Positions 5,701 through 42,663 of a DNA stretch of 64,000 bases are shown here, piece after piece (position 1 is the stretch's first letter; every line of letters starts with the position of its first letter). A model generated the notes under the pieces. That model was given only the letters and a program-made list of their open reading frames with translations, was not told the origin of the DNA and did no database searches. The position numbers and the translations under genes are program-made. The DNA lies in NCBI RefSeq assembly GCF_030499535.1, contig NZ_JASTLB010000001.1:5580001-5644000 (forward strand), written 5' to 3'. The stretch is from Streptomyces sp. TG1A-8. Lineage in GTDB: Bacteria; Actinomycetota; Actinomycetes; Streptomycetales; Streptomycetaceae.

Positions 5701-5706
5701 GAGGGC

Positions 5707-6844: not shown

Positions 6845-6928
6845 GTGGCCGATCTGGCCTTCGTTGTCACCATGCTCGCGGGTTTCGCGCTGGTGGCCCT
6901 TGTCGCCAAGGGGGTGACGAAGCTGTGA
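6845..6928 (+). CDS. 27-aa single-pass membrane peptide ahead of kdpF
   Basis: A GTG-started ORF preceded by AGGAG at 5-base spacing, encoding [10 protein letters not shown], a hydrophobic helix ([11 protein letters not shown]) and a basic tail KGVTKL. Its stop overlaps the kdpF start by 4 bp (GTGA), the same coupling used elsewhere in the operon. The Shine-Dalgarno match, the overlap and the clean transmembrane composition argue that it is translated. It could be an extra small subunit or assembly factor of the KdpFABC pump, or a leader peptide. I know of no assigned function. Confidence 0.6.
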
Positions 6929-7014
6929 CCGTCGAGAACATCGTCGGCATGGTAATAGCCGTCTGCCTGCTGGGCTATCTCGTCCTTGCCCTGATCTTCC
7001 CGGAGAGGTTCTGA
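6925..7014 (+). CDS. kdpF: K(+)-transporting ATPase subunit KdpF
   Basis: A 29-aa peptide with one transmembrane helix and the characteristic ending [14 protein letters not shown]. KdpF is a lipid-like stabiliser of the KdpFABC complex in the membrane. It starts at a GTG overlapping the upstream small ORF and ends 2 bp before kdpA. Size and C-terminal motif match actinobacterial KdpF. Confidence 0.9.
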
Positions 7015-7016
7015 CG

Positions 7017-8708
7017 GTGACATCAGCCGCTACCGCGGCGGGCAGCATGGGTCCCGTAACCGCCGGTGTGCTCCAACTGTTCGCCTTGATAGGCGCACTG
7101 GCGCTTGTCCACATCCCTCTCGGCACCTACATGACCGGGGTCTACTCGTCGAAGAAGCACCTTTGGGTCGAGAAGTGGATCTACAAAGGCATTGGCGCCG
7201 ACCCCGACACTGAGATGACCTGGACGGCGTATCTGCGCGGTGTCCTCGCCTTCTCGGTGATCGGCGTCCTCTTCCTCTACGGCCTCCAACGGCTCCAAAG
7301 CGTCCTGCCCGGCTCGCTCGGCTTCGCCTCGATCGACCCGGACCAGGCGTTCAACACCGCCGTCTCCTTCGTGACGAACACCAACTGGCAGTCGTACTAC
7401 GGCGAGCAGGCCATGGGCCACGTTGTGCAGACCGCTGGGCTGGCTGTGCAGAACTTCGTCTCGGCAGCCGTTGGCATGGCCGTCGCGGTCGCGCTGGTGC
7501 GCGGTTTCGCACGATCCCGCTGCGGTGAGCTGGGCAACTTCTGGTCGGACCTGGTGCGCGGTGTCGTGCGCATCCTGATGCCTCTGGCGTTCGTCGCCGC
7601 TATCGTGCTGGTCGCCTGCGGCGCGATCCAGAACTTCTCCGGCATTCACGAGGTCGGCCAGTTCATGGGCGGCTCGCAACAGTGGAACGGCGGCGCGGTC
7701 GCCTCGCAGGAGGCCATCAAGGAGCTGGGTACCAACGGCGGCGGCTACTTCAATGCCAACTCCGCCCACCCCTTCGAGAACCCCACCCCGTTCTCCAACC
7801 TGTTCGAGATCTTCCTGATCCTGGTCATCCCGTTCTCCCTGACCCGCACCTTCGGCGCCATGGTCGGCAGCGTGAAGCAGGGGTACGCGATCCTCGCCGC
7901 GATGGGCACGATCTGGATCGGCTTCGTCCTGCTGATGATGTGGACCGAGTTCTCCCACCACGGCCCGGCCTTCAACCTGGCGGGCGGGGCGATGGAGGGC
8001 AAGGAGGTCCGCTTCGGCATCGGTGGCTCCTCGATCTTCGCCGTGTCGACCACAATGACTTCCACCGGCGCGGTGGACTCCTTCCACTCCTCCTTCACCG
8101 GCCTGGGCGGCGGCATCACCCTGCTCGGCATGATGCTCGGCGAGATCGCGCCCGGCGGCGTCGGCTCCGGCCTCTACGGCATGCTGATCATGGCGGTCAT
8201 CGCGGTGTTCCTCGCCGGCCTGATGGTCGGCCGCACCCCCGAGTACCTGGGCAAGAAGATCGGCACCCGCGAGATCAAGCTGGCCGCCCTGTACATCCTG
8301 GTCACCCCGGCGCTCGTGCTGGTCTTCACCGCCGCCGCGATGGCCCTGCCGACCCCGGCTAACTCCATGACCAACAGCGGTGCGCACGGCTTCTCCGAGA
8401 TCCTCTACGCCTACACGTCCGCCTCGAACAACAACGGCTCGGCCTTCGCCGGCCTGAACGCGGACACCCAGTGGTTCAACAGCACTCTGGGCCTGGCCAT
8501 GCTGTTCGGCCGCTTCCTGCCGATGGTGTTCGTGCTGGCGCTCGCCGGCTCGCTGGCCCGGCAGACGCCGGTGCCGGTCACTGCGGGCACCCTGCGCACG
8601 GAGAAGCCGCTGTTCACCGGCCTGCTGGTGGGCGCCATCCTGATCCTCACCGGTCTCACGTACTTCCCCGCCCTCGCGCTGGGTCCGCTCGCCGAGGGGC
8701 TGGCGTGA
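7017..8708 (+). CDS. kdpA: K(+)-transporting ATPase subunit A
   Basis: The 563-aa channel-like subunit of the KdpFABC pump, with about ten transmembrane segments. The four-fold selectivity-filter repeats are visible, including [20 protein letters not shown] near residue 240 and further glycine-rich loops ([22 protein letters not shown]). It forms the high-affinity K+ pathway that feeds KdpB. It starts with a GTG 2 bp after kdpF, and its stop overlaps the kdpB start by one base (TGATG). Length is as usual for the family. Confidence 0.96.
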
Positions 8709-20022: not shown

Positions 20023-20639
20023 ATGAAACCCGTGCCCCACGCGAGCTCCCTGCGCCGCGCGCCCGTCCAGCGGCGCAGCGCCGAACGGCTGACCAGAATC
20101 CTCGACGCCTGCGCCGAACTCCTCGACGAGGCCGGCTACGACGGCCTGAGCACCCGGGCCGTCGCCCTGCGCGCCGGAGTGCCCATCGGCTCGGTCTACC
20201 GGTTCTTCGGCAACAAGCGGCAGATGGCCGACGCCCTCGCCCAGCGCAACCTGGACCGGTACGCCGGGCGGGTCGCCGAGCGCCTGGAGCGGGCCGGACG
20301 GGGGACTGGCGGGCCGCCATGGACGCCGTACTGGACGAGTACCTGGACATGAAGCGCACCGCGCCCGGTTTCTCCCTGGTGGACTTCGGCAACCAGATAC
20401 CCGTCGGCGTCCACCGGGCCGAGCCCAACACCCGCGTCGCCGACCGCCTCACCGACCTGCTCTCCGGTTTCCTCGGCCGCACCCCCGACGACGAGCTGCG
20501 CCGTGTCTTCCTGATCGCCGTGGAAAGCGCGGACACCCTCGTCCAACTGGCGTTCCGGGCCGACCCGCAGGGCGACGAGGCGATCCTCGGGGAGGCCCGG
20601 GAACTGCTGCGGGCGTACCTGGGGCGCGTGCTCGACTGA
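20023..20639 (+). pseudogene. TetR-family regulator with a one-base frameshift
   Basis: The first part (from ATG 20023) is a good TetR helix-turn-helix: [41 protein letters not shown]. At a run of five Gs (20300-20304) the frame changes. The expected DWRAAMDAVLDEYLDMKRT and the whole ligand-binding domain to LLRAYLGRVLD continue in another frame up to 20639. The total length is one base short of a full frame, so a single G deletion explains it. A homopolymer sequencing error is as likely as a real mutation. The gene lies just upstream of the molybdopterin oxidoreductase, whose promoter has a TetR-like operator. Confidence 0.8.
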
Positions 20640-20686
20640 GTCCCCCGGGCGTCGCCGGAACCGGCCGACGGCGAGGACTCCCCTCC

Positions 20687-20705
20687 ATGCCAACCGGTCG
20701 GTATG
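20687..20705 (+). promoter_or_regulatory. TetR-like operator over the promoter of the molybdoenzyme
   Basis: ATGCCAACCGGTCGGTATG is a near-perfect dyad of the CATACCGACCGGTCGGTATG type. It overlaps a TATGCT -10 box (20702-20707). Related copies stand at 36900-36919 and 42391-42409. The regulator could be the adjacent frameshifted TetR or the TetR at 39443. Confidence 0.6.
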
Positions 20706-23911: not shown

Positions 23912-24611
23912 GCGCGGGCGCAGGCCCTGGTACCGGACGCGCGCCTACCGCCTCGCCAGGACGGCCCTGCTCGCGGTCGTCCTGGTGGCGGTGGGCGTCC
24001 GGTCCGGGGAGCACGACGGGGCCCGGGGACCCCTCCGGGCCGCGGGACGGGGCACCGCCCCGGACTCCGCCCGCGCCGACGGGCGCGGCGCCGGCCGGGA
24101 CGGGACCGGCCCGGACCGCGCCGCGCCCCGCCCGGCACCCCCGCCCCGTCCGCTGGCCCGGTCCCGGCCGACGTCCCTGCGCATCCCGTCCCTGGGCATC
24201 GACGCGCCCGTCGTCGCCGTCCGGCTCGACGGCGACCGGCAGCTGGCGACCCCGCCGGTCGACAGGCCCAGGCTGGTCGGCTGGTACGAGGGCGGCCCCA
24301 CCCCGGGGGAGCCCGGCACCGCGGTCGCCGTCGGCCACCGCGACACCAGGACGGGCCCCGCCGTCTTCGCCGCGCTCGCCCAGGTCGAGCCCGGCAGGCG
24401 TATCGAGGCCCGGCGCGCCGACGGCCGCACCGCCGTCTACACCGTGGACCGGGTGAAGGTCTTCGACAAGGCCGGCTTCCCGGACGAGGAGGTCTACGGC
24501 CCGGTCCGGCGCCCGGAGCTGCGCGTGCTCACCTGCGGGGGCCTGTTCAGCAGGCGCACCGGCTACACGGGCAACGTGGTCGTCTTCGCCCACCTGACCG
24601 CCACGAGGTGA
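23898..24611 (+). CDS. Class F sortase
   Basis: A 237-aa cysteine transpeptidase. An N-terminal membrane anchor (LARTALLAVVLVAVGV) is followed by a proline/arginine-rich linker and the sortase domain (about 95-235). Catalytic residues are H147 (VGHRDT), C213 (LRVLTCGG, the TLXC-type motif) and an Arg near 220 (SRRTGY). Class F sortases are widespread in actinobacteria and poorly understood. The 14-bp overlap with the upstream secreted protein implies that protein is its substrate or partner. After the gene, about 200 bp of alanine/proline-biased DNA is non-coding. Confidence 0.88.
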   Translation: MAPRRRGRRPWYRTRAYRLARTALLAVVLVAVGVRSGEHDGARGPLRAAGRGTAPDSARADGRGAGRDGTGPDRAAPRPAPPPRPLARSRPTSLRIPSLGIDAPVVAVRLDGDRQLATPPVDRPRLVGWYEGGPTPGEPGTAVAVGHRDTRTGPAVFAALAQVEPGRRIEARRADGRTAVYTVDRVKVFDKAGFPDEEVYGPVRRPELRVLTCGGLFSRRTGYTGNVVVFAHLTATR

Positions 24612-24815
24612 CCGCACGGTGCGGGCCGCGGCGCCCGCACCGGCGGCGCGCGGCTCCCCGGCGGCCCGGACCGGCTCCCCCGCTCCCCGTCCCGCCCGGG
24701 CGAAGCGCCCGATGCCGTGCCACGCCTCCTCCCGCTCCCCGCCCGCCCGGCCCGGAGGCCCCGGCCCGGCGGGCGCGTCCCGGCGCGTCCGGTGGCCGGG
24801 ACGTCTGGCGCACAA

Positions 24816-24834
24816 AAACTAACACCGCTAGTTT
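24816..24834 (+). promoter_or_regulatory. TetR operator upstream of the aldehyde dehydrogenase operon
   Basis: AAACTAACACCGCTAGTTT is a 19-bp imperfect dyad ending 37 bp before the ATG. A sister site (28165-28183) lies between the TetR gene and the acyl-CoA dehydrogenase. This makes it the probable binding site of the TetR protein encoded at 27497-28138. Confidence 0.7.
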
Positions 24835-24871
24835 GGAGGTGGACGACGCCGACCCGCCGGGAGGAAGCACC

Positions 24872-26260
24872 ATGAAGGCACACGACGGCCTCTACATCGA
24901 CGGCGTCTGGCGCCCCGCCGGGAGCCGTGACGTGATCGAGGTCGTGAACCCGGCCGACGAGCAGGTCATCGGCCGGGTCCCGGCGGGCGGCGCCGCGGAC
25001 GTCGACGGCGCGGTGCGCGCGGCGCGCGCCGCCCTGCCCGGCTGGGCCGCCACGCCCCCCGCCGAGCGGGCCGCCCGCCTGGCCGCCCTGCGGGACGTCC
25101 TGGCGGCGCGCAAGGACGAGATCGCCGCGACGGTCACCGCCGAACTGGGCTCCCCGCTGCCGTTCTCGCAGGCGGTGCACGCGAGCGTGCCGATCGCGGT
25201 CGCGGGCTCCTACGCCGAGCTGGCCGCGGCCCACTCCTTCGAGGAGAGGGTCGGCAACTCCACCGTCCTGCACGAGCCCGTCGGCGTCGTCGCCGCGATC
25301 ACCCCCTGGAACTACCCCCTGCACCAGATCGTCGCCAAGGCCGCCCCGGCGCTGGCCGCCGGCTGTACGATCGTCCTCAAGCCGGCCGAGGACACCCCGC
25401 TCACCGCGCAGCTCTTCGCCGAGGCCGTCCACGAGGCGGGCCTGCCGGCCGGCGTGTTCAACCTGGTCACCGGTCTCGGCCCGGTCGCCGGGCAGGCCCT
25501 CGCCGAACACCCGGACGTCGACATGGTCTCCTTCACCGGTTCCACGGCGGTCGGCCGGCGGATCGGCGCGGTGGCCGGCGCGGCCGTGAAGAAGGTCGCC
25601 CTCGAACTCGGCGGCAAGTCGGCCAACGTCATCCTGCCCAGCGCCGACCTCGCCAGGGCCGTCAACGTCGGCGTGGCCAACGTGATGGCCAACTCCGGCC
25701 AGACGTGCAGCGCCTGGACCCGCATGCTGGTCCACCGCGAGCAGTACGCCGAGGCCGTCGAACTGGCCGCCACCGCCGCCGCCAAGTACGGCGACCGCAT
25801 CGGCCCGGTCGTCAACGCCAAGCAGCAGCAGCGGGTGCGCGGTTACATCGAGAAGGGCATCGCCGAGGGTGCCCGCCCGGTCGCCGGCGGTCCCGAAGCC
25901 CCGCGCGAGAAGGGCTACTTCGTCAGCCCGACCGTCCTCGCGGACGTGACCCCCGGCATGACCGTCGCCCAGGAGGAGATCTTCGGCCCGGTCCTGTCGG
26001 TCCTGCGCTACGAGGACGAGGACGACGCCCTGCGCATCGCCAACGGCACGGTGTACGGCCTCGCGGGGGCCGTCTGGGCCGGTGACGAGAGCGAGGCGGT
26101 GGCCTTCGCCCGCCGCATGGACACCGGCCAGGTCGACATCAACGGCGGCCGGTTCAACCCCCTCGCCCCCTTCGGGGGGTACAAGCAGTCCGGGGTCGGC
26201 CGGGAACTCGGCGCGCACGGACTCGCCGAGTACCTCCAGACCAAGTCCCTCCAGTTCTGA
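24872..26260 (+). CDS. Aldehyde dehydrogenase, NAD(P)-dependent
   Basis: A 462-aa ALDH-superfamily enzyme, oxidising an aldehyde to an acid. Visible residues are the cofactor-binding [10 protein letters not shown] and KPAEDTP region, general base E245 (ALELGGKSA) and nucleophile C279 ([11 protein letters not shown]), spaced as usual. The [14 protein letters not shown] motif is near the end. The ATG at 24872 has GGGAGGAAG upstream. It is 15 bp from the alcohol dehydrogenase gene, with which it forms an operon under the TetR operator at 24816. An alcohol-to-aldehyde-to-acid route for a fatty or aromatic substrate is likely; the substrate is not determinable. Confidence 0.92.
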
Positions 26261-26275
26261 GGAAGTCAGCGAGCC

Positions 26276-27358
26276 ATGGTCGTACGAGCCGCCGTCCTGC
26301 CCGCCATCGGCGCCCCCCTGGAGATCACCGCGATCGAACTGCCCGACCCCGGACCCGGACGGGTCCGGGTCCGCCTCGCCGCCGCCGGCGTCTGCCACTC
26401 CGACCTGTCCCTGACCAACGGCACCATGCGGGTGCCGGTCCCGGCGGTCCTCGGCCACGAGGGCGCGGGCACGGTCGTCGCCGTGGGGGAGGGGGTCACC
26501 GGTGTCTCACCCGGCGCCGCCGTGGTCCTCAACTGGGCACCGGCCTGCGGGGAGTGCCACGCCTGCGCACTCGGTGAGGTCTGGCTGTGCGCCAACGCCC
26601 TCAACGGCGCCGGCGCCCTCCACGCCCGCACCGCCGACGGCACCGAACTCCACCCCGGCCTGAACGTCGCCGCGTTCGCCGAGGAGACGGTCGTCCCCGA
26701 GTCCTGCCTGCTGCCCCTGCCCGACGGCGTCCCGCTCACCGACGCGGCCCTGCTCGGCTGCGCCGTCCTCACCGGCTACGGCGCCGTCCACCACTCGGCA
26801 CGGGTCCGGCGCGGGGAGACGGTCGCCGTGTTCGGTGTCGGCGGCGTCGGCCTGGCCGCCCTGCAGTCGGCCCGGATCGCGGGCGCCTCCCGCATCGTCG
26901 CGGTCGACGTCTCCCCCGAGAAGGAGGAGCTGGCCCGCGCGGCCGGTGCCACCGACTACGTCCTCGCCTCCGCCACCACCCCCCGCGAGATCCGCGCCCT
27001 GACCGGCAAGCAGGGCGTCGACGTCTCCGTGGAGTGCGTGGGTCGCGCGGTCACCATCCGCGCCGCCTGGGAGTCCACCCGCCGGGGCGGCCGCACGACC
27101 GTCGTCGGCATCGGCGGCAAGGACCAGGAGGTCACCTTCAACGCCCTGGAGATCTTCCACTGGGGCCGCACCCTGTCCGGCTGCGTCTACGGCAACTGCG
27201 ACCCGGCGCGCGACCTGCCGGTACTCGCCGAACACGTGCGGGAGGGCCGGCTGGACCTCTCCCGGCTGGTGACCGAGCGGATCACCCTGGAGGGCATCCC
27301 GGCCGCCTTCGACAACATGCTCGCGGGCCGGGGCGGCCGGGCGCTGGTGGTGTTCTGA
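26276..27358 (+). CDS. Zinc-dependent alcohol dehydrogenase (class III-like, MDR family)
   Basis: A 360-aa medium-chain dehydrogenase. Catalytic zinc ligands are C40 (GVCHSD) and the His of GHEGAG. The structural zinc lobe is CGECHACALGEVWLC. The Rossmann motif VFGVGGVGLAALQSARIAGA sits near residue 185. It closely resembles the mycothiol- or NDMA-type alcohol dehydrogenases of actinobacteria. It follows the aldehyde dehydrogenase by 15 bp and probably supplies its aldehyde. It is convergent with the TetR gene at 27497, with 138 bp between. Confidence 0.9.
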   Translation: MVVRAAVLPAIGAPLEITAIELPDPGPGRVRVRLAAAGVCHSDLSLTNGTMRVPVPAVLGHEGAGTVVAVGEGVTGVSPGAAVVLNWAPACGECHACALGEVWLCANALNGAGALHARTADGTELHPGLNVAAFAEETVVPESCLLPLPDGVPLTDAALLGCAVLTGYGAVHHSARVRRGETVAVFGVGGVGLAALQSARIAGASRIVAVDVSPEKEELARAAGATDYVLASATTPREIRALTGKQGVDVSVECVGRAVTIRAAWESTRRGGRTTVVGIGGKDQEVTFNALEIFHWGRTLSGCVYGNCDPARDLPVLAEHVREGRLDLSRLVTERITLEGIPAAFDNMLAGRGGRALVVF

Positions 27359-27496
27359 GGGACACCCGGCCGGCGGCGCCGGGACCCGGGCGGGCGCGAC
27401 GGCGGACCGTGCGTGCGGGGCGCACGGGAGACCGCCCGCCCCGCCCCTCGCGGCCCCGCGCCCCCGGTGTGCGGTGCCCGCCCCGCGGCCGCCGCG

Positions 27497-28138
27497 CTAC
27501 GACCCCTGCCGCACCTGCTCGTACTGCCGCGCCAGCCCGTCCAGCAGCGCCGTGAGCCCCGTCTCGAAGGCCCGCTCGTCGATCTTCTCCTGCTGCTCGG
27601 CCAGCAGGTGCGCCTGCTGGAGGTGGGGGTAGTCGGCGGGGTCGTACGCGCTCGCGTCGTCCACGAAGCCCGCCGCGAAGGAGCCCAGCGCGGAGCCCAT
27701 GATGAAGTAGCGCATCAGCGCCCCGATGGAGGTGGCCTGCGCGGGCGGCCAGCCCGCGTCGACCATCGCGCCGTAGACCGCGTCGGCCAGCCGCAGCGCG
27801 GCCGGGCGGCGACCGGGGCCGCGGGCCAGGACCGGGACGATGTTCGGGTGGTCGCGCAGGGCGGCCCGGTAGGAGGCGGCCCAGTCGTGCAGCGCGGTCC
27901 GCCAGTCCCGGGCGTCCTCGAACATCGACAGGTCCACCAGCGCGCTCACCGAGTCCGCGACCGCCTCCAGGATGTCGTCCTTGGTGCGGAAGTGGTTGTA
28001 CAGCGAGGGCCCGCTCACTCCCAGTTCGGCGGCGAGCCGCCGGGTGGAGACGGCCGCCAGGCCCTCCGCGTCCACGAGTTCCCGGGCCGTCTCGACGATC
28101 CGGTCGGTGCTGAGCAGGGGCTTGCGCGGTCGGGCCAT
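27497..28138 (-). CDS. TetR/AcrR-family repressor of the alcohol/acyl-CoA oxidation genes
   Basis: A 213-aa TetR protein. The helix-turn-helix is at residues about 12-58 (IVETARELVDAEGLAAVSTRRLAAELGVSGPSLYNHFRTKDDIL), followed by a TetR_C-like helical ligand domain. An in-frame ATG three codons upstream (28147) is an alternative start. The operator at 28165-28183 lies just upstream, between this gene and the divergent acyl-CoA dehydrogenase. The same motif fronts the aldehyde dehydrogenase operon. It therefore probably represses itself, the dehydrogenase at 28229 and the operon at 24872, released by an acyl-CoA or aldehyde-type ligand. Confidence 0.88.
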   Translation of the reverse strand: MARPRKPLLSTDRIVETARELVDAEGLAAVSTRRLAAELGVSGPSLYNHFRTKDDILEAVADSVSALVDLSMFEDARDWRTALHDWAASYRAALRDHPNIVPVLARGPGRRPAALRLADAVYGAMVDAGWPPAQATSIGALMRYFIMGSALGSFAAGFVDDASAYDPADYPHLQQAHLLAEQQEKIDERAFETGLTALLDGLARQYEQVRQGS

Positions 28139-28164
28139 GGCGCACATAGTAGGGCTGCGACAAG

Positions 28165-28183
28165 AAACTAGCAGTGCTAATTT
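28165..28183. promoter_or_regulatory. TetR operator between tetR and the acyl-CoA dehydrogenase
   Basis: AAACTAGCAGTGCTAATTT is a dyad matching the site at 24816-24834. It is placed 27 bp from the tetR start and 46 bp from the dehydrogenase start, in an AT-rich pocket suitable for both divergent promoters. Confidence 0.7.
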
Positions 28184-28228
28184 AAGGGTACGGCTTTCAA
28201 GATCTGTCTGGTGCGGGGTGATCGCGTG

Positions 28229-29380
28229 GTGAACCTGGAGCTGAGCGAGGAGCAGGCCGCCGTACGGCAGCTCGCCCGGGACTTCGTGGAGCGCGAGATC
28301 GCCCCGCACGTCGTCGCCTGGGACCGGGCCGAGGAGGTCGACCGGGGCATCGTGAGGAAGCTCGGCGACGTCGGCTTCCTCGGCCTGACCATCGACGAGG
28401 AGTACGGCGGCTCGGGCGGCGACCACCTCGCGTACTGCCTGGTCACCGAGGAGCTGGGTCGCGGCGACTCCTCGGTGCGCGGAATCGTCTCCGTCTCGCT
28501 CGGACTGGTCGCCAAGTCCGTCGCCGCCTGGGGCAGCGAGGAGCAGAAGCGCCGCTGGCTGCCCGGTCTGACCGCCGGGGAGTACGTCGGCTGCTTCGGC
28601 CTCACCGAACCCGGCACCGGCTCCGACGCCGGCAACCTCACCACCCGGGCCGTGCACGACGGGGACGACTACGTCCTCAACGGCACCAAGATGTTCATCA
28701 CCAACGGCACCTGGGCCGACGTCGTCCTGCTCTTCGCCCGTTCCACCGACGCTCCCGGCCACAAGGGCGTCTCCGCCTTCCTGGTGCCCGCCGACACCCC
28801 CGGCCTGTCCCGCCGCACCGTCCACGGCAAGCTCGGCCTGCGCGGCCAGGCCACCGCGGAACTGGTCCTGGAGGACGTCCGGGTGCCCGCCTCGGCGATG
28901 GTGGGTGCGCAGGGCAAGGGCTTCTCCGTCGCCATGTCCGCGCTCGCCAAGGGGCGGATGTCGGTGGCCGCGGGCTGCGTCGGCATAGCCCAGGCCGCGC
29001 TGGACGCGGCCGTCCGGTACGCCGGCGAGCGCGAGCAGTTCGGCAAGCCGATCGCCCGCCACCAGCTGGTGCAGGAACTGATCAGCGACATCGCCGTCGA
29101 CGTGGACGCGGCCCGGCTGCTGACCTGGCGGGTCGCCGACCTGATCGACCGGGGGCAGCCCTTCGCCGTGGAGTCCTCCAAGGCCAAGCTGTTCGCCTCC
29201 GAGGCCGCCGTGCGCGCCGCCAACAACGCCCTGCAGGTCTTCGGCGGCTACGGCTACATCGACGAGTACCCGGCCGGCAAGCTGCTGCGCGACGCCCGCG
29301 TGATGACCCTCTACGAGGGCACCAGCCAGATCCAGAAGCTCCTCATCGGGCGGGCGCTGACCGGGGTCTCGGCCTTCTGA
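28229..29380 (+). CDS. Acyl-CoA dehydrogenase
   Basis: A 383-aa flavoprotein that introduces the alpha-beta double bond in acyl-CoA. Family signatures are GCFGLTEPGTGSDAGNL, FITNGTWAD and QVFGGYGYIDEYPAGKLLRDARV. The catalytic base is E363 in LYEGTSQIQKLLIG. The GTG at 28229 gives the normal N-terminus NLELSEEQ. GTGs at 28211 and 28226 are alternatives; only a weak GGGG precedes them. It is divergent from the TetR gene and shares its operator with the alcohol/aldehyde dehydrogenase operon. Together they suggest oxidation of an alcohol to an acid and then beta-oxidation. Confidence 0.93.
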   Translation: MNLELSEEQAAVRQLARDFVEREIAPHVVAWDRAEEVDRGIVRKLGDVGFLGLTIDEEYGGSGGDHLAYCLVTEELGRGDSSVRGIVSVSLGLVAKSVAAWGSEEQKRRWLPGLTAGEYVGCFGLTEPGTGSDAGNLTTRAVHDGDDYVLNGTKMFITNGTWADVVLLFARSTDAPGHKGVSAFLVPADTPGLSRRTVHGKLGLRGQATAELVLEDVRVPASAMVGAQGKGFSVAMSALAKGRMSVAAGCVGIAQAALDAAVRYAGEREQFGKPIARHQLVQELISDIAVDVDAARLLTWRVADLIDRGQPFAVESSKAKLFASEAAVRAANNALQVFGGYGYIDEYPAGKLLRDARVMTLYEGTSQIQKLLIGRALTGVSAF

Positions 29381-29479
29381 GCGCGCCCCGCCGCGCCCGC
29401 CGGCCCCGCCCGTCCTGAGTACCCGTCCTGAGTACCCCGGCGGATGCGGTGCGGGCCGCCCGGGGCCGATGCTCGTCCC

Positions 29480-29767
29480 ATGAGCGACACACCGGTCAAG
29501 CAGCAGAGCACGGCCGCCTTCTACGGGCAGGCCGTCGCGTCCTTCGCCGTCGCCATGGCGGCCGCCACCCTCGGCATCGTCCGCCTGCACGCCGACGCCT
29601 GGGTGCGCGGCTTCCTCGGCATCGCCGTGCTCTACCTCGTCACGTCCGCGTTCACCCTCGCCAAGGTGATCCGCGACCGCCAGGAGGCCGGGCAGATCGT
29701 CAGCCGCGTCGACCAGGCGCGGCTGGAGAAGCTGCTCGCCGAGCACGACCCCTTCGAGAAGCTCTGA
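29480..29767 (+). CDS. YiaA/YiaB-type two-helix membrane protein
   Basis: A 95-aa protein with two transmembrane segments (about residues 13-33 and 40-62, AFYGQAVASFAVAMAAATLGI and FLGIAVLYLVTSAFTLAKVI). A cytoplasmic tail, RDRQEAGQIVSRVDQARLEKLLAEHDPFEKL, follows. The pattern AFYGQ...LG and FLGIAVLYLV...AFTLAKVIRD is that of the YiaAB two-helix domain family. The function is unknown. The ATG at 29480 lacks a strong Shine-Dalgarno. Confidence 0.8.
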   Translation: MSDTPVKQQSTAAFYGQAVASFAVAMAAATLGIVRLHADAWVRGFLGIAVLYLVTSAFTLAKVIRDRQEAGQIVSRVDQARLEKLLAEHDPFEKL

Positions 29768-29803
29768 GCGCTCCGGCGGCCCGGACCGCGCCGGACGGCC
29801 GCC

Positions 29804-29834
29804 CTAAGCGAGCGCTCAGCTTCGGCGGTATGGT
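29804..29834 (+). promoter_or_regulatory. TetR operator and -10 box of the 29868 gene
   Basis: CTAAGCGAGCGCTCAG (29804-29819) has the form CTAAGC-N4-GCTNAG, as does the site at 30989-31004. A TATGGT -10 box follows at about 29829-29834, so the operator occupies the -35 region. Autoregulation is the simplest reading. Confidence 0.65.
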
Positions 29835-29867
29835 GGTGCTCCTGTCACCGGAAGGGGCGAGCGAGCG

Positions 29868-30512
29868 ATGAGTACGGCGCAGGAGACGACCGGCGGCGAG
29901 GTCGAGCCGTGGGAAGAGGTCACCCCCGACGCGGCCCGGCGGCTCCTCGTCGCCGCCGTGGAGGCCTTCGCCGAGCGCGGGTACCACGCGACGACGACCC
30001 GCGACATCGCGGGCCGGGCCGGCATGAGCCCGGCCGCGCTCTACATCCACTACAGGACCAAGGAGGAGCTGCTCCACCGGATCAGCCGGATCGGCCACGA
30101 CAAGGCCCTGGACATCCTGCGCACGGCGGCCCGGCGCGAGGGCAGCCCCGCCGAGCGGCTGGCCGACGCGGTCGGCTCCTTCGTCCGCTGGCACGCCGGC
30201 CGGCGCACCACGGCGCGGGTCGTGCAGTACGAGCTCGACGCGCTCGGCCCCGGGGCCCGCGCCGAGATCGTGGCGCTGCGCCGCCAGGTCGACGCCGAGG
30301 TGCGCGGGATCATAGAGGACGGCGTGGCCTGCGGCGAGTTCCAGGTGGCGGACGTCCAGGGCACCACCCTGGCCGTATTGTCGCTGTGCATCGACGTGGC
30401 CCGCTGGTTCAACGTGGAGGGGCCGCGCACCCCCGAGGAGGTCGGCGCGCTCTACGCCGACCTCGTGCTGCGGATGGTGGGCGCCGAGCGGGCGCCCGGC
30501 GCTCAGAGGTAG
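29868..30512 (+). CDS. TetR-family regulator
   Basis: A 214-aa TetR protein. The helix-turn-helix is near residues 25-70 ([44 protein letters not shown]). The ligand domain matches the KstR2-like TetR_C group used for acyl-CoA sensing. The ATG at 29868 has GGGGCGAGCGAGCG upstream. Its 3' end overlaps the convergent MaoC gene by 10 bp. Its operator motif recurs in front of that MaoC gene, which is therefore the obvious second target. Confidence 0.88.
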
Positions 30513-30964
30513 TACCGGGACACCGACTCGGCGACGCAGACCGGCTTGTCGCCGCCCTCGCGCTCCACGGTGAAGGCAACCGCCACCTGGACGCCTCCGG
30601 GCACGTCCTCGACCCCGGTGATGGCGGCGGTGGCGCGCAGTCGGGAGCCGACCGGGACGGGGGAGGGGAAGCGGACCTTGTTCGTCCCGTAGTTCACGCC
30701 CATCTTCACGCCCTCGACGCTGATCAACTGCGGCCCGAACAGCGGGAGCAGGGACAGGGTGAGGTAGCCGTGCGCGATGGTGGTCCGGAAGGGCCCGGCG
30801 GCGGCCTTCTCCGGGTCGACGTGGATCCACTGGTGGTCCCCGGTGGCGTCGGCGAACAGGTCGATCCGCTTCTGGTCGATCTCGACCCAGTCGGTGTACC
30901 CGAGCTGCTCGCCCACGGCGGCCCTCAGCTCGTCGGGGGAGGTGAAGGTCCTCGGTTCTGCCAT
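30503..30964 (-). CDS. MaoC-like (R)-specific enoyl-CoA hydratase
   Basis: A 153-aa single hot-dog domain. The hydratase motif is present as [34 protein letters not shown], with the catalytic Asp/His pair. Length is typical of single-domain actinobacterial MaoC proteins. It hydrates trans-2-enoyl-CoA. It is convergent with, and overlaps by 10 bp, the TetR gene, and its promoter carries the same CTAAGC-N4-GCTTAG operator. Induction by a fatty acyl-CoA is a reasonable inference. Confidence 0.9.
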
Positions 30965-36899: not shown

Positions 36900-36919
36900 C
36901 ATACCGACTGGTTAGTCTG
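36900..36919 (+). promoter_or_regulatory. TetR-like operator over the SDR/acyl-CoA ligase promoter
   Basis: CATACCGACTGGTTAGTCTG resembles the dyads at 20687-20705 and 42391-42409. A TAGTCT -10 box (36913-36918) lies inside it. The operon it controls ends with a TetR gene (39443), the likely autoregulator. Confidence 0.65.
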
Positions 36920-36968
36920 GTGGGGCCAGAGTCGACGCGCGCCGCGCGAAGTCGTGTCAAGGAGACCG

Positions 36969-37742
36969 ATGGTGGAAGCCGTGCAGGATGCGGGAGTGGT
37001 CGTCACCGGGGCGGGCGGGGGGATCGGGGCCGCGCTGGCCCGCAGGTTCGCCGCCGAGGGCGCCCGGGTGGTGGTCAACGACCTGGACGCCGGGAAGGCC
37101 GAGGCGGTCGCCGAGGAGATCGGCGCGACCGCCGTGCCCGGTGACGCCTCCGCGATCGTCGACGACGCGCGGGACGCCCTCGGCGGCACCGTGGACGTCT
37201 ACTGCGCCAACGCCGGCGTCGGCTTCCAGGACGGGGACGCGGCCGGACCGCTCGACGAGAAGAGCTGGGCGCTGTCCTGGGACGTCAACGTGATGGCCCA
37301 CGTCCGGGCCGCCCACCAGCTGCTGCCCGGCTGGCTGGAGCGGGGCCGCGGCCGGTTCGTCTCCACCGTCTCGGCCGCCGGCCTGCTCACCATGATCGGC
37401 GCCCCCTCCTACAGCGTCACCAAGCACGGGGCACTGGCCTTCGCCGAATGGCTCTCGCTCACCTACCGCCACCGGGGCCTGAAGGTCCACGCGATCTGCC
37501 CGCAGGGCGTGCGCACCGACATGCTGGCCGCCACCGGCAGCGCGGGCGACCTGGTGCTCCAGCCGACCGCGATCGCGCCGGAGGCCGTCGCCGACGCCCT
37601 GCTCCGGGGCATCGAGGAGGACCGCTTCCTGATCCTGCCGCACCCCGAGGTCGCCGAGTTCTACCGGGCGCGGGCCACCGACCCCGACCACTGGCTGGGC
37701 GGCATGAACCACCTCCAGCGCCAGTGGGAGGCGACCCGGTGA
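36969..37742 (+). CDS. SDR-family oxidoreductase
   Basis: A 257-aa classical SDR: TGAGGGIGAALAR near residue 13, acidic strand end NDLDAGKAE suggesting NAD(H), NAGVGF near 83 and the Y-x3-K motif in PSYSVTKHGALA. The ATG at 36969 follows AAGGAGACC. Its stop overlaps the acyl-CoA ligase GTG start (GTGA), so the two are coupled. In the context of a ligase, an APH kinase and an acyl-CoA dehydrogenase it could play the LvaD role, interconverting 4-oxo- and 4-hydroxyacyl-CoA. That is inference, since SDR sequence alone does not fix the substrate. Confidence 0.88.
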   Translation: MVEAVQDAGVVVTGAGGGIGAALARRFAAEGARVVVNDLDAGKAEAVAEEIGATAVPGDASAIVDDARDALGGTVDVYCANAGVGFQDGDAAGPLDEKSWALSWDVNVMAHVRAAHQLLPGWLERGRGRFVSTVSAAGLLTMIGAPSYSVTKHGALAFAEWLSLTYRHRGLKVHAICPQGVRTDMLAATGSAGDLVLQPTAIAPEAVADALLRGIEEDRFLILPHPEVAEFYRARATDPDHWLGGMNHLQRQWEATR

Positions 37743-39406
37743 CCGTCTCCCGGTACGCCGCCCGCCCCTGGCTGGCCCTCCTCGACGAGGCCCAGCGCGC
37801 CCCGGTCGAGCCCGCCGACTCCCTCGTGCACGCCCTGCGCCACGCCGTCGCCGAGGCCCCCGGGCGCACCTTCCTCACCTACTTCGACGCCCGTCTGAGC
37901 TACCGCGAGGTGGACCGGATGAGCGACTCCGTCGCCGCCCACCTCGCCGGGCGCGGCCTGGAGCGCGGGGACCGGGTCGCCGTCCTGCTGCAGAACTCCC
38001 CGCACTTCGTGCTGGCGGTCCTCGGCGCCTGGAAGGCGGGCGCGACCGTCGTGCCCGTCAACCCCATGTACAAGTCGGCGGAGGTCTCCCACGTCCTGCG
38101 CGACGCCGGGGTGGCGGCGCTGGTCTGCTCCGACCGGGCCTGGGAGTCCTACCTGCGCGCCACGGCCGCCGACTCGCCGGTGCGGACCGTGCTCACCGCG
38201 TGCGAGCTGGACTTCCAGACGCGCGACGACACGCGCGTGCTGGGCTTCGAACGGCTGCCCCCGGCCGCGGACGCCGACGACCTCGTGGCCGTCGCCCGGC
38301 GGGGCGGCACGGCCCCCGCGGGCCGCGACCCGCACCCCGGCGACACCGCCCTGATCAGCTACACCTCCGGCACCAGCGGCACCCCCAAGGGCGCCACCAA
38401 CACGCACGGCAACATCATGCACAACGCCGAGCGGCAGCGCACCGGGCTCGGCCTGCCCGAGGCGCCCGTCTACCACGCGCTGGCGCCCCTGTTCCACATC
38501 ACCGGAATGGTCTGCCAGCTCGGCGCCTGCCTCGACAGCGCGGGCACGCTCGTGCTCACCTACCGCTTCGAGGCCGGGGTCGTCCTGGGGGCGTTCGCCG
38601 AGCACCGCCCGCACTACACGGTCGGCCCGTCCACCGCGTTCATGGCGCTGGCCGCCCACCCCGACGCCACCCGCGACCACTTCTCCTCCTTCGTGCACAT
38701 CTCCTCCGGCGGCGCCCCCCTGCCGCCCGCCCTGGTGGAGATGTTCCGCGAGCGCTTCGGGCCGTACATCCGCAACGGCTACGGCCTCACCGAGTGCACC
38801 GCCCCCTGTGCCTCCGTCCCGCCCACCCTGGAAGCGCCCGTCGATCCGGCCTCGGGAACCCTGGCCGTCGGCGTGCCCGGCGCGGACACCGTCGTGCGCG
38901 TCCTGGACGAGCGGGGCGCGGAGGTCCCCTTCGGCGAGCAGGGCGAGATCGCCGTCCGCGGACCGCAGGTCGTCCCCGGCTACTGGCGGCGGCCCGACGC
39001 CACCGCCGAGACCTTCCCGGACGGCGAACTGCGCACCGGCGACATCGGGTTCATGGACGCGCAGGGCTGGCTGTACGTCGTCGACCGCAAGAAGGACATG
39101 ATCAACGCGTCCGGCTTCAAGGTGTGGCCGCGCGAGGTCGAGGACGTCCTCTACACCCACCCGGCGGTGCGCGAGGCGGCCGTCGTCGGGGTCCCGGACG
39201 GCTACCGCGGGGAGACCGTGAAGGCCTACATCAGCCTCCGGCCGGACGCGGAGGCGGACCCGGAGGAACTCGCGGTGTACTGCAGGGAGAGACTGGCCGC
39301 CTACAAGTACCCGCGCCAGGTGGAGATCCTGCCCGAGCTGCCCAAGACGGCCAGTGGGAAGATCCTGCGGCGGGAACTGCGTTCCCGTACGCACGGGGAC
39401 CGGTAG
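37739..39406 (+). CDS. Acyl-CoA synthetase (AMP-forming), long-chain-fatty-acid-CoA ligase type
   Basis: A 555-aa ANL-superfamily ligase. P-loop YTSGTSGTPKGATNTH lies near residue 205, NGYGLTECTAP near 345, GELRTGDIGFMD near 430 and VVDRKKDMINASGFKVWPREVE after it. The catalytic lysine is in PKTASGKILRREL at the C-terminus. It activates a carboxylic acid to its CoA thioester via an acyl-adenylate. The GTG at 37739 overlaps the SDR stop. It is followed 36 bp later by the TetR gene, completing a three-gene operon under the operator at 36900. Confidence 0.93.
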   Translation: MTVSRYAARPWLALLDEAQRAPVEPADSLVHALRHAVAEAPGRTFLTYFDARLSYREVDRMSDSVAAHLAGRGLERGDRVAVLLQNSPHFVLAVLGAWKAGATVVPVNPMYKSAEVSHVLRDAGVAALVCSDRAWESYLRATAADSPVRTVLTACELDFQTRDDTRVLGFERLPPAADADDLVAVARRGGTAPAGRDPHPGDTALISYTSGTSGTPKGATNTHGNIMHNAERQRTGLGLPEAPVYHALAPLFHITGMVCQLGACLDSAGTLVLTYRFEAGVVLGAFAEHRPHYTVGPSTAFMALAAHPDATRDHFSSFVHISSGGAPLPPALVEMFRERFGPYIRNGYGLTECTAPCASVPPTLEAPVDPASGTLAVGVPGADTVVRVLDERGAEVPFGEQGEIAVRGPQVVPGYWRRPDATAETFPDGELRTGDIGFMDAQGWLYVVDRKKDMINASGFKVWPREVEDVLYTHPAVREAAVVGVPDGYRGETVKAYISLRPDAEADPEELAVYCRERLAAYKYPRQVEILPELPKTASGKILRRELRSRTHGDR

Positions 39407-39442
39407 ACGCGCACGACAGCCAGTGGAACGACGGAAAGGCAG

Positions 39443-40045
39443 GTGGCGGCAGTGCCCAGGACGACGGACGGAGACGGGACGCCCGTTCCGCAGAGGCTGC
39501 TGAACGCCGCCACCCGCCTCTTCGCCGAGCAGGGTTACGACCGCACCTCGGTGCAGGAGATCGTGGAGGCGGCCGGCGTCACCAAGGGGGCGCTGTACCA
39601 CTACTTCGGCTCCAAGGACGACCTCCTGCACGAGGTGTACGCACGCGTGCTGCGCGTCCAACAGGAGCGGCTGGACGCCTTCGCGGACGCGGACGAGCCG
39701 GTCGAGCGGCGTCTGCGGGGCGCGGCGGCGGACGTGGTCGTCACCACGATCGAGAACCTCGACGACGCGTCGATCTTCTTCCGCTCCATGCACCACCTGA
39801 GCCCGGAGAAGAACAAGCAGGTCCGCGCCGAGCGCCGGCGCTACCACGAACGCTTCCGCGCGCTCGTCGAGGAGGGCCAGCGCGAGGGCGTCTTCTCCAC
39901 CGCGACCCCCGCCGACCTGGTCGTGGACTACCACTTCGGCTCCGTCCACCACCTGTCCACCTGGTACCGCCCCGACGGCCCCCTGGCCCCGCAGGAGGTC
40001 GCCGACCACCTCGCCGACCTGTTGCTGCGGGCCCTGCGGCCGTGA
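39443..40045 (+). CDS. TetR-family regulator of fatty/hydroxy-acid genes
   Basis: A 200-aa TetR protein. The helix-turn-helix is LLNAATRLFAEQGYDRTSVQEIVEAAGVTKGALYHYFGSKDDLLHEVY. The ligand domain contains FFRSMHHLSPEKNKQVRAERRRYHERF. A GTG at 39452 is an alternative start. As the last gene of the SDR-ligase operon it should autoregulate through the dyad at 36900. The divergently placed APH/acyl-CoA dehydrogenase operon has a better copy (42391), and a third stands before the molybdoenzyme (20687). These make a small regulon likely. Confidence 0.9.
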   Translation: MAAVPRTTDGDGTPVPQRLLNAATRLFAEQGYDRTSVQEIVEAAGVTKGALYHYFGSKDDLLHEVYARVLRVQQERLDAFADADEPVERRLRGAAADVVVTTIENLDDASIFFRSMHHLSPEKNKQVRAERRRYHERFRALVEEGQREGVFSTATPADLVVDYHFGSVHHLSTWYRPDGPLAPQEVADHLADLLLRALRP

Positions 40046-40109
40046 GCGCACGGGTGGGGGGCGGCCACCGGGCACCGCCCGCGACCGTCCCCCGCCCGTG
40101 TGCGCTCAC
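40042..40109. terminator. Hairpin joining two convergent stop codons
   Basis: GTGAGCGCAC at 40042-40051 contains the TetR stop. Its exact complement at 40100-40109 contains the stop of the convergent acyl-CoA dehydrogenase. Further G/C pairing inside extends the stem, interrupted by a 2-base bulge. It probably terminates both transcripts. Confidence 0.65.
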
Positions 40110-41320
40110 AGGTACTTCTTCAGCTCCCTGCGGGCCAGCGAGCGCTGGTGCACCTCGTCCGGCCCGTCGGCGAGCATCAGCGTGCGCGCTCCGGCGTACA
40201 GCTCGGCCAGCGGGAGGTCCTGGCTCACCCCGGCCGCGCCGTGCAGCTGGATCGCGCGGTCGATGATGTCCACGACCGCCCTCGGCGTGGCGATCTTGAT
40301 GGCCTGGATCTCCGTGTGGGCGCCCCGGTTGCCGACGGTGTCCATCAGCCAGGCCGTCTTGAGCACCAGCAGCCGCAGCTGCTCGACCGTCACCCGGGCG
40401 TCCGCGATCCAGTTGTGGACCACGCCCTGCTGGGCCAGCGTCTTGCCGAAGGCCGTGCGGGACACCGCGCGCCGGCACATCAGCTCGATCGCCCGCTCGG
40501 CCATGCCGATCAGCCGCATGCAGTGGTGGATCCGGCCGGGACCCAGGCGGGCCTGGGCGATGGCGAAGCCGCCGCCCTCCTCGCCGATCAGGTTCGCCAC
40601 CGGCACGCGGGCGTGGTCGAAGACCACCTCGGCGTGCCCGCCGTGGTGGTGGTCCTCGTAACCGAACACCCCCATGGCCCGCTTCACGGTGACACCCGGG
40701 GTGTCGCGCGGGACCAGCACCATGGACTGCTGGCGGCGCACGTCCTGCCCGTCCGGGTCCGTCTTGCCCATCACGATGAAGACCGCGCAGTCCGGGTTCA
40801 TCGCCCCGGAGATGTACCACTTGCGGCCGGTGACGACGTACTCGTCGCCGTCCCGCTCGATGTGCGTGGTGATGTTCGTGGCGTCGGACGAGGCCACCTC
40901 GGGCTCCGTCATCGCGAACGCCGAGCGGATCCTGCCCGCCAGCAGCGGCTCCAGCCACTGCTTCCGCTGCTGTTCGTCGCCGAACTGCGCCAGCACCTCC
41001 ATGTTGCCGGTGTCGGGCGCCGCGCAGTTCAGCGCGGTGGGCGCGAGCTGCGGGGAGCGGCCGCTGATCTCGGCGAGCGGCGCGTACTGGAGGTTGGTCA
41101 GCCCGGCGCCGTACTCGGCGTCCGGCAGGAACAGGTTCCACAGGCCCTGCCGGCGCGCCTCGGCCTTCAGCTCCTCGACCACGGCCGGGGTGTCCCACGG
41201 CGAGGCCAGCGCGGCCCGCTGCTCCTCGGCCACCGCCTCCGCCGGGTAGACGTACTCGTCCATGAAGGCGAGGAGCCTGGCGCGCAGTTCCTCCGTGCGC
41301 GCGTCGAACGCGAAGTCCAT
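40106..41320 (-). CDS. Acyl-CoA dehydrogenase, ACAD10/11-like (LvaC-like)
   Basis: A 404-aa acyl-CoA dehydrogenase of the subgroup that travels with APH-type kinases. Characteristic blocks are NLFLPDAEYGAGLTNLQYAPLAEI, NCAAPDTGNMEVL, FAMTEPEVASSDATNI, GRKWYISGAMNPDC and LGPGRIHHCMRLIGMAERAIELM, ending in DGPDEVHQRSLARRELKKYL. In human ACAD10/11 and in LvaC of Pseudomonas such enzymes process phosphorylated 4-hydroxyacyl-CoA. The gene is 6 bp downstream of the APH kinase in one operon. That gives this pair a specific predicted role rather than plain beta-oxidation. Confidence 0.9.
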   Translation of the reverse strand: MDFAFDARTEELRARLLAFMDEYVYPAEAVAEEQRAALASPWDTPAVVEELKAEARRQGLWNLFLPDAEYGAGLTNLQYAPLAEISGRSPQLAPTALNCAAPDTGNMEVLAQFGDEQQRKQWLEPLLAGRIRSAFAMTEPEVASSDATNITTHIERDGDEYVVTGRKWYISGAMNPDCAVFIVMGKTDPDGQDVRRQQSMVLVPRDTPGVTVKRAMGVFGYEDHHHGGHAEVVFDHARVPVANLIGEEGGGFAIAQARLGPGRIHHCMRLIGMAERAIELMCRRAVSRTAFGKTLAQQGVVHNWIADARVTVEQLRLLVLKTAWLMDTVGNRGAHTEIQAIKIATPRAVVDIIDRAIQLHGAAGVSQDLPLAELYAGARTLMLADGPDEVHQRSLARRELKKYL

Positions 41321-41326
41321 GTCGGG

Positions 41327-42349
41327 TCAGCCTTCCTGCAGAGTGGTCAGTCCGTGGTGGATGAAGACGGGCACCAGCTCGCCGATCCGGTCGAAGCCGT
41401 GTCCCACCGTCCGGCCCAGCGTGTACCGGTAGTGGATGCCCTCCAGGATCACGGCGAGCTTGAACCAGGCGAACGCCGTGTACCAGGAGACGGCGGAGAC
41501 GTCGCGCCCCGAGCGCGCGGCGTACCGCTCGACCAGCTCGGCCGGGGAGGGGTGCCCCGGGGCCTCGGCCGTGGTGGAGACGGGCGACTCGGGCATGCCC
41601 AGCGGCCGGCTGTACATCACCAGCAGGCCCAGGTCGGTGAGCGGGTCGCCGAGCGTCGACATCTCCCAGTCGAGGATCGCCCGGATCCGGTCGTCCTCGC
41701 CGATGAGGACGTTGTCGAGCCGGTAGTCGCCGTGCACGACGGCCGGCGCGGGGGAACGGGGCAGGGCGCGCCCGAGGGCCGCGTGCAGTTCGTCGATGCC
41801 GGCCAGCTCGCGGTTGCGGGAGGCGTCCAGCTGCTTGCCCCAGCGGCGCAGCTGCCGGTCCAGGAAGCCCTCCGGCCGGCCGAAGTCCGCCAGGCCCACC
41901 CCGGCGGGATCCACCGCGTGCAGCTCGACCAGTGTGTCCACCAGGGACAGCACCGCGTCGCGGGTGCGCTCCGCGCCGAGCGGGACGAGCTGCTGGGCGG
42001 TGCGGTACGGGGTGCCCTCCACGAACTCCATGACGTAGAACGGCGCGCCGAGCACCTCCTCGTCCTCGCACAGCAGCACCGGGCGGGGGACGGGCACGGA
42101 CGTCGGGTGCAGCGCGCTGATCACCCGGTGCTCGCGCTTCATGTCGTGCGCGGTGGCCAGCACGTGGCCGAGCGGCGGGCGCCGCACGACCCACTTCGAG
42201 GTGCCGTCGGTGACCGCGTAGGTGAGGTTGGACCGTCCGCCCTCGATCAGCCGGCCGGTCAGGGGGCCGCCGACCAGACCGGGGCGCTCACGGTCCAGCA
42301 GGGCGCACAGCCGGTCGAGATCGAGCCCGGGCGGGTGGTCGGCGCTCAT
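41327..42349 (-). CDS. APH-type phosphotransferase (ACAD10/11 kinase domain, LvaA-like)
   Basis: A 340-aa aminoglycoside-phosphotransferase-fold kinase. The N-lobe has GGRSNLTYAV, then WVVRRPPLGHVLATAHDM with the ATP-binding Arg/Lys region. The catalytic loop is VVHGDYRLDNVLI (HGDxxxxN) and the metal-binding segment AILDWEMSTLGDPLTDLG. The length and a following acyl-CoA dehydrogenase are exactly those of the split bacterial form of ACAD11. Its predicted substrate is 4-hydroxyacyl-CoA, phosphorylated on the 4-OH. The ATG at 42349 follows TAGGAGTG. The operator at 42391 controls the operon. Confidence 0.88.
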   Translation of the reverse strand: MSADHPPGLDLDRLCALLDRERPGLVGGPLTGRLIEGGRSNLTYAVTDGTSKWVVRRPPLGHVLATAHDMKREHRVISALHPTSVPVPRPVLLCEDEEVLGAPFYVMEFVEGTPYRTAQQLVPLGAERTRDAVLSLVDTLVELHAVDPAGVGLADFGRPEGFLDRQLRRWGKQLDASRNRELAGIDELHAALGRALPRSPAPAVVHGDYRLDNVLIGEDDRIRAILDWEMSTLGDPLTDLGLLVMYSRPLGMPESPVSTTAEAPGHPSPAELVERYAARSGRDVSAVSWYTAFAWFKLAVILEGIHYRYTLGRTVGHGFDRIGELVPVFIHHGLTTLQEG

Positions 42350-42663
42350 ACATCACTCCTACGAACGGGTGAACAACGACGTGGTTCATGATGCCGACCG
42401 GTCGGTATGCAGTCCAGTGCGCGTACCGAACACGGACGCAAACGTGACCGGAGCCACGAGGGGACGACGGCCCCCGGTCCGCGGCGGCTGCCCGCCCCTG
42501 CGGCCGCCTGCGTCCGCGTGCCGCCCGCCCGGGTGCCGGCCGCGCGCGGTCACGGTGGTGGGGCGCGGTCACGGGGGTGGGCTCCGGGAGCGCGGGGGCC
42601 TCGGAAACGGCCGACGCGCGACCGGCACGCGCCCGGGCACCACGGCCCGGCCCGCCGGTGCCG
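42350..42663. other. 314-bp upstream region of the kinase/dehydrogenase operon
   Basis: It holds the TetR-type operator at 42391-42409 and the operon's promoter. The rest, towards the DUF202 gene, is GC-rich and has no visible gene. Confidence 0.5.
42391..42409 (-). promoter_or_regulatory. TetR-like operator of the kinase/acyl-CoA dehydrogenase operon
   Basis: ATGCCGACCGGTCGGTATG is a 19-bp dyad with one mismatched pair, the best of three related sites in the window. It is 42 bp upstream of the kinase start codon. Confidence 0.7.

Follow-up and report, generated by a model that had tools for sequence, protein, structure and literature searches.

A 64,000-nucleotide stretch of the Streptomyces sp. 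TG1A-8 genome (7.66 Mb; contig NZ_JASTLB010000001.1, positions 5,580,001 to 5,644,000; hereafter the window) carries what is likely a regulon of three promoters, controlled by a TetR-family regulator resembling PfmR of Thermus and bringing 4-hydroxyacyl groups into beta-oxidation, as judged from gene content and DNA sites. The core of this regulon is a module of two convergent operons spanning positions 36969-42349: one on the plus strand encoding a short-chain dehydrogenase/reductase (SDR), an acyl-CoA ligase and the TetR regulator, and one on the minus strand encoding an APH-fold kinase and an acyl-CoA dehydrogenase (ACAD). The putative third member is a molybdopterin oxidoreductase (MoOx) encoded some distance away. 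The arrangement of the two operons, proposed in an earlier note made from the sequence alone, was confirmed by gene coordinates and Pfam matches, and the ligase start overlaps the SDR stop. The note had also recognized two of the operators, but the third operator and MoOx were overlooked (Table 1).

Both operon promoters carry a dyad of 20 bp, and their relatedness is confirmed by a whole-genome count: the entire genome has three exact copies of the half-site, all of them in the window, compared to zero occurrences of a reversed control pattern. A looser search allowing 3 mismatches in the half-site pattern was discarded as no better than chance (32 found versus 30.1 expected in the window). 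Across the genus, the 20-bp pattern CATACCGACYGGTYRGYMTS was present in 75 of 81 genomes, while the reversed control was found in none of the 81. The form seen at the SDR promoter, ending in TTAGTCTG, accounts for 71 of 134 genus sites, and 66 of these 71 are no more than 15 kb from the kinase gene, itself detected in 78/81 genomes. For the kinase promoter we considered 77 orthologues, one per genome, excluding paralogues, second fragments and a 52% copy in genome G079. The operator was found upstream of 75 of the 77, the remaining two (G050 and G041) being outside the examined set. The strict form stands 36-127 bp upstream of the kinase in 61 cases; of the other 16 upstream regions 14 were examined, and all 14 carry an operator variant of 22 to 30.8 bits. 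Overall, conservation in the genus supports the proposal that one operator governs both operons. A ScbR-type gamma-butyrolactone operator was also considered and rejected, as the NCBIfam ScbR score was 71.6 (cut-off 150); ScbR motifs given in PMC4595836 differ from the operator found here. Separately, a third exact operator of genome G062 (2068-2087 of its locus) precedes a luciferase-like monooxygenase gene by about 100 bp.

The residues of the ACAD point to its chemistry. In mouse ACAD11, R626, H634, R637 and D753 are reported for 4-phosphoacyl-CoA chemistry (PMC12440821), and R258, H266, R269 and D385 of the window ACAD align with them. The two proteins are 55% identical across the aligned segment; the match to 8V3U (ACAD11) has an E value of 1.3e-136, compared to 2.3e-38 for the best ordinary ACAD. 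All four residues were present in 35 of 35 aligned LvaC-type ACADs, two of which carry HAMR in place of HCMR, and the full set in none of 11 other ACADs, although two of these have Arg at column 269. At D385 the catalytic Asp replaces the usual Glu: among eight paralogues in the source genome six have Glu, one has Gly and one is unaligned there, and the next-nearest ACAD of this genome is 32% identical to the module ACAD. In a midpoint-rooted FastTree tree of these 35 and 11 sequences, in which P. putida LvaC was not included, the 35 LvaC-type proteins, ACAD11 among them, form one clade with a support of 0.93. Assignment to the ACAD10/11-LvaC type is thus supported. In the kinase, D208 and N213 align with D220 and N225 of ACAD11, the catalytic Asp and Asn of the APH/PKL fold, and its structural model has a pLDDT of 88.5 (9O56, the best sequence match, was not among the VIA-align rows). 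The best 120 of 7998 kinase matches come from Streptomyces (up to 93%), and no second copy was found in the source genome at E<=1e-10. No NCBIfam match shown for the five module proteins exceeds its cut-off. The pairing of a kinase with an ACAD10/11-LvaC-type ACAD, suggested in the earlier note, is supported by the catalytic residues and the ACAD tree, and the core step is probably the conversion of 4-hydroxyacyl-CoA to 4-phosphoacyl-CoA and on to 2-enoyl-CoA.

Table 1. Genes and operator copies of the proposed regulon (positions in the window).
Feature	Position	Strand	Characteristics
Third operator copy, 5' of MoOx gene	20686-20705	-	exact half-site
MoOx, ~750 aa	20765-23017	+	DMSO reductase family; PF00384, PF01568, PF04879; N-terminal 4Fe-4S motif
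TetR operator at SDR-ligase-TetR promoter	36900-36919	+	dyad CATACCGACTGGTTAGTCTG, exact half-site
SDR, 257 aa	36969-37742	+	adh_short PF00106 E 9.9e-35
Acyl-CoA ligase, 555 aa	37739-39406	+	PF00501 E 1.4e-87; AMP-binding and AMP-binding_C
TetR regulator, PfmR-like, 200 aa	39443-40045	+	TetR_N PF00440 and TetR_C_24 PF17932; 3VPR E 1.6e-26
ACAD, ACAD10/11-LvaC type, 404 aa	40106-41320	-	Acyl-CoA_dh_N, _M, _1; R258, H266-C-M-R269, D385
APH-fold kinase, 340 aa	41327-42349	-	APH PF01636 E 4.2e-58; HGDYRLDN with D208, N213
TetR operator at kinase-ACAD promoter	42390-42409	-	dyad CATACCGACCGGTCGGCATC

MoOx was present in 60 of the 81 genus genomes. We scored its upstream regions with a matrix built from SDR and kinase sites only, leaving the MoOx sites out, and 42 of the 44 examined (of 60) reached 12 bits, the misses being G062 (5.2) and G014 (4.1). 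Mononucleotide-shuffled stretches served as the null and gave a maximum of 12.6 and a 99th percentile of 8.4 in 360 trials. Outside the genus, we compared 12 MoOx upstream regions from 11 genomes with the kinase (E<=1e-80) to 8 from genomes without such a kinase. The site was found in 2/12 of the former (G300, 19.5 bits; G309, 21.5 bits) and 0/8 of the latter (best 8.7), and in these two genomes, which belong to another family, MoOx and kinase are separated by 0.5 Mb or more. These results bear on whether the site serves a neighboring TetR-type gene (20023-20640) instead, with MoOx outside the regulon. That gene does lie directly upstream of MoOx, but the exact half-site at MoOx equals the one at the kinase promoter and occurs nowhere in the genome besides the three sites, and the two distant MoOx genes still carry the operator, which together make this alternative improbable. 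The TetR-type gene itself has a mid-gene frameshift in the source genome, with its N- and C-terminal halves in different frames, either real or an assembly error.

The best matches to MoOx were thiosulfate reductase and formate dehydrogenases. A conserved cysteine motif and TVDQMPKH are found in seven genus relatives, and three Deinococcus relatives read DQLPHH. On the plasmid of Deinococcus QL22, a MoOx gene (44% identical) comes after an ACAD-SDR-kinase-phosphatase string; among the six Deinococcus plasmids for which both MoOx and ACAD positions were listed, the two genes are within 16 kb in three and more than 80 kb apart in three. It is conceivable, though highly improbable, that MoOx hydroxylates an acyl chain with water, after which the kinase would phosphorylate the new alcohol and the ACAD would eliminate the phosphate. 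If true, Streptomyces and Deinococcus would own an oxygen-independent hydroxylate-phosphorylate-eliminate route on acyl-CoAs, a counterpart of the anaerobic activation of steroid side chains, under a type of regulator found in three phyla. Between MoOx and the module, the window also harbors genes for an aldehyde dehydrogenase, a zinc alcohol dehydrogenase, an ordinary ACAD, a TetR protein and a MaoC protein (24608-30964), and an operator scan of this segment returned no site of at least 16 bits.

The regulator offers a link to a characterized system. The nearest solved structure to the window TetR is 3VPR, whose printed stretch agrees with the translation of a TetR gene on Thermus plasmid pTT27, 34% identical to the window TetR. 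By the binding-site coordinates in PMC7022988, the source of the published PfmR data used here, this gene is TTHB023, encoding PfmR. PfmR sites are bound with a KD of 0.3-1 nM and share the core TACCGACCGGT, for example CCTACCGACCGGTCGG with a KD of 0.3 nM (PMC7022988). Compared with the 16-position PfmR consensus TACCGACCGNTNGGTN (PMC7022988), the kinase and MoOx sites conform at positions 1-14 and deviate at position 15; the SDR operator departs from it also in the middle and right half. Members of the PfmR operon include a phosphotransferase (TTHB014) and an ACAD (TTHB015; PMC7022988), and on pTT27 the ACAD adjoining the kinase reads THCMR and YDGPSEVH. The operon content comprises an HCMR/Asp ACAD, the phosphotransferase, SDRs, a DUF6285 protein, a histidine phosphatase, a MaoC protein and a thioesterase. 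From these likenesses we infer that PfmR may control the same kind of module as the Streptomyces TetR. The DUF6285 gene (5694-6044 of the pTT27 locus) encodes 116 aa and adjoins the PfmR-operon kinase; its product is similar in size to LvaB (12 kDa; PMC6692424).

Next to the genus, we surveyed other bacteria in a genome scan from which the best 80 loci of at least 594 matched stretches were kept, 35 of them from Streptomyces and 45 from other genera. Among the 45, the kinase (at least 40%) was found in 29, the SDR (at least 42%) in 16, the TetR (at least 55%) in 12 and the operator (at least 16 bits) in 15. TetR and operator occurred together in 12 loci, the operator alone in 3, the TetR alone in none and neither in 30 (Fisher p 1.6e-8, the loci being mutually non-independent). 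With a threshold of 16 bits, the matrix had 26 matches in these 45 loci and one from Streptomyces, against 0, 1, 14, 1, 0, 1, 0 and 0 for eight column-permuted controls; with a threshold of 24 bits it had 11, and no control had more than 1. The SDR lies within 300 bp of the kinase or ACAD in 8/45 loci. SDR relatives adjoin the kinase/ACAD pair in Actinomycetota and Deinococcus, with near full-length ones 42-46% identical to the window SDR in Deinococcus plasmids and 57% in Tsukamurella. A plasmid of Cytobacillus (Bacillota) encodes a TetR 32% identical to ours and carries a 24.4-bit site upstream of an SDR (null maximum 17.5 in 60); a second site of 15.7 bits is below this maximum.

Some loci stood out for their gene content. 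Tsukamurella plasmid NZ_LR134470.1 (1088-14045 of the locus) holds genes for a thiolase, SDRs, a HAD phosphatase, FabG, MaoC, the kinase, three ACADs, a phosphotriesterase and a ligase in one string, seemingly a complete plasmid version of the module, in which the operator was not found. In Longimycelium (5310-8212 of the locus) the operator is followed by HAD-hydrolase, kinase and ACAD genes, matching the HAD-kinase-ACAD domain order of human ACAD10. The plasmid of Streptomyces sp. NBC_00388 (7853-17508 of the locus) carries a kinase-ACAD pair among genes for ketosynthases and an AfsA hotdog protein, a cluster that may serve gamma-lactone or butenolide biosynthesis. Genes located between TetR and ACAD in relatives were rejected as pathway members, the five scanned encoding an M28 peptidase (two), a sensor kinase, a transposase and a helix-turn-helix protein.

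Several observations weigh against the proposed regulon. MoOx was near the kinase (within 60 kb) in none of 20 other-genus genomes holding both, as scored by eye and contig breaks allowing. Conserved synteny was therefore rejected as proof of MoOx membership, and because it fails outside the genus the assignment rests on the operator. A scan of 17 plasmid loci gave sites of at least 13 bits in just S. cathayae, Cytobacillus and one Deinococcus (weak, 13.7); Tsukamurella, Burkholderia, Sphingobium, Azospirillum and the majority of the Deinococcus loci had none. The literature assigns the PfmR regulon to phenylacetate and fatty acid metabolism (PMC7022988), identity between the Thermus and window kinases is only 27%, over part of the length, and no SDR of the Thermus operon matched the window SDR at 1e-5. 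The earlier note had placed both core enzymes with LvaA, LvaC and ACAD11. The ACAD does group with ACAD11, but the kinase tree (unrooted, without an outgroup and without P. putida LvaA) puts the window kinase with actinobacterial kinases and the ACAD11 kinase domain with proteobacterial ones. Finally, PDB titles show a steroid alcohol to be phosphorylated by one kinase of the APH fold, namely the 25-hydroxysteroid kinase, which would presumably act in one pathway with steroid C25 dehydrogenase (S25DH). The window kinase might similarly act on some other, for example steroid-like, alcohol, with the ACAD working on an unrelated substrate; this is very unlikely, since kinase and ACAD are adjacent and co-regulated, the ACAD bears the full 4-phosphate signature and the kinase is far closer to the kinase domain of ACAD11 (E 8e-50) than to 9FSG (E 2.4e-9).

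The earlier note proposed a candidate catabolic module for levulinate or 4-hydroxyacids, on the grounds that the four enzyme classes are those of the lva pathway. Among 20 genus loci, hand-picked so that unusual operator spacings were represented, every one has kinase, ACAD, SDR and TetR, but in 5 of the 20 the ligase gene was not found. Similarly, it was not found within the stretch examined in 11 of the 35 named Streptomyces loci, some of which are cut by contig ends or rearranged. Kinase and ACAD are kept in all loci where the ligase was not found. (Genome G012 was wrongly taken for a case of two intact, far-apart operons; a rearrangement break runs through its ligase.) No DUF6285 gene was found in the source genome, this being the family to which LvaB presumably belongs, and four of four small Deinococcus proteins considered as DUF6285 candidates had no Pfam match. 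P. putida requires lvaA, lvaB and lvaC for growth on levulinate, and its single lvaABCDE operon is regulated by the sigma54-type LvaR (PMC6692424); here we found a TetR and two convergent operons instead. The missing LvaB is no bar to an lva reading, as the P. citronellolis cluster also has no lvaB (PMC6692424). Nevertheless, with the ligase often absent, a TetR in place of LvaR, no DUF6285 gene found and lactonase-type genes in some related clusters, levulinate as the substrate is not supported, and there is little likelihood that the locus is simply an actinobacterial lva operon.

Those lactonase-type genes, seen with the module in four loci of actinobacteria and in one Deinococcus operon, raise a different possibility, namely that the natural substrates are gamma-lactones opened by a lactonase to 4-hydroxy acids that then enter the module. 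Two Amycolatopsis loci have a gene of the phosphotriesterase (PTE) family separating TetR from the ligase, in Nocardioides such a gene follows the ACAD, and the Tsukamurella plasmid string includes one as well; the Deinococcus operon has an SMP-30-like gene. The PDB entry nearest to the PTE-family gene product is 4IF2 ('phosphotriesterase homology protein', E 6e-134), presumably a mycobacterial relative, followed by 2VC5 (E 4.5e-71), presumably the Sulfolobus lactonase SsoPox. However, PTE and kinase occur together in 19 of 246 genomes of the class and within 20 kb in none of the 19 (by eye), the source genome has no PTE gene, and among the 80 named loci just 3 have one. A PTE lactonase as a general partner was rejected on this basis, and gamma-lactones as the natural substrates are an unlikely candidate.

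Drawing on the observed gene anatomy, catalytic residues, operator conservation and co-occurrence, we favor the following scheme for the 4-hydroxyacyl regulon, with presumed substrates and step order. The PfmR-like TetR would hold three promoters via one 20-bp operator until released by an inducer, probably one of the pathway's acyl-CoAs. A CoA thioester would be made by the module ligase or another ligase. The SDR may interconvert 4-oxo and 4-hydroxy forms, in whichever direction, or correct C4 stereochemistry. The kinase would phosphorylate the 4-OH and the ACAD would remove the phosphate by redox-neutral use of FAD, yielding 2-enoyl-CoA, with MoOx as the putative third regulon member. In plain terms, a soil bacterium appears to place three gene groups under one conserved switch, probably feeding 4-hydroxylated fatty-acid-like molecules into fat breakdown. 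For the bacterial relatives of ACAD10/11 this defines a regulon, and since the DNA site of its regulator is readable, the inducer offers a way to find substrates. Our results also suggest that PfmR, published as a phenylacetate and fatty acid regulator, really controls a 4-hydroxyacyl-CoA module, and they tie MoOx to the module by a common operator, in two genomes even with the genes far apart. Among the papers listed by full-text searches of open-licence PMC articles (for one search, 10 of 2,556), none connected LvaA/LvaC chemistry with the Streptomyces locus, with PfmR or with a molybdopterin oxidoreductase. The chemistry is already known, but the regulon, its PfmR link and the molybdenum enzyme look new.

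Parts of this system resemble known ones. Mammalian ACAD10 and ACAD11, which serve 4-hydroxy acid catabolism, likewise combine a kinase with an ACAD bearing the catalytic Asp, HCMR and Arg, whereas here the two are separate proteins under TetR regulation, with an SDR and a ligase in the same regulon. The Sterolibacterium pair of S25DH and 25-hydroxysteroid kinase also joins a DMSO-reductase-family enzyme to an APH-fold kinase, but S25DH has three subunits and heme (PMC6016249), and the best matches to MoOx are of other kinds, as given above. The P. putida lva operon shares the kinase, ACAD, SDR and acyl-CoA ligase classes and differs in having LvaR in place of a TetR; our locus has two convergent operons, a dispensable ligase and no DUF6285 gene that we could find. 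Finally, the T. thermophilus PfmR (TTHB023) regulon is a single long operon that includes MaoC, thioesterase, DUF6285 and histidine phosphatase genes, unlike the locus described here, yet the two have in common a homologous TetR, the operator core and the combination of SDRs, an HCMR/Asp ACAD and a phosphotransferase.

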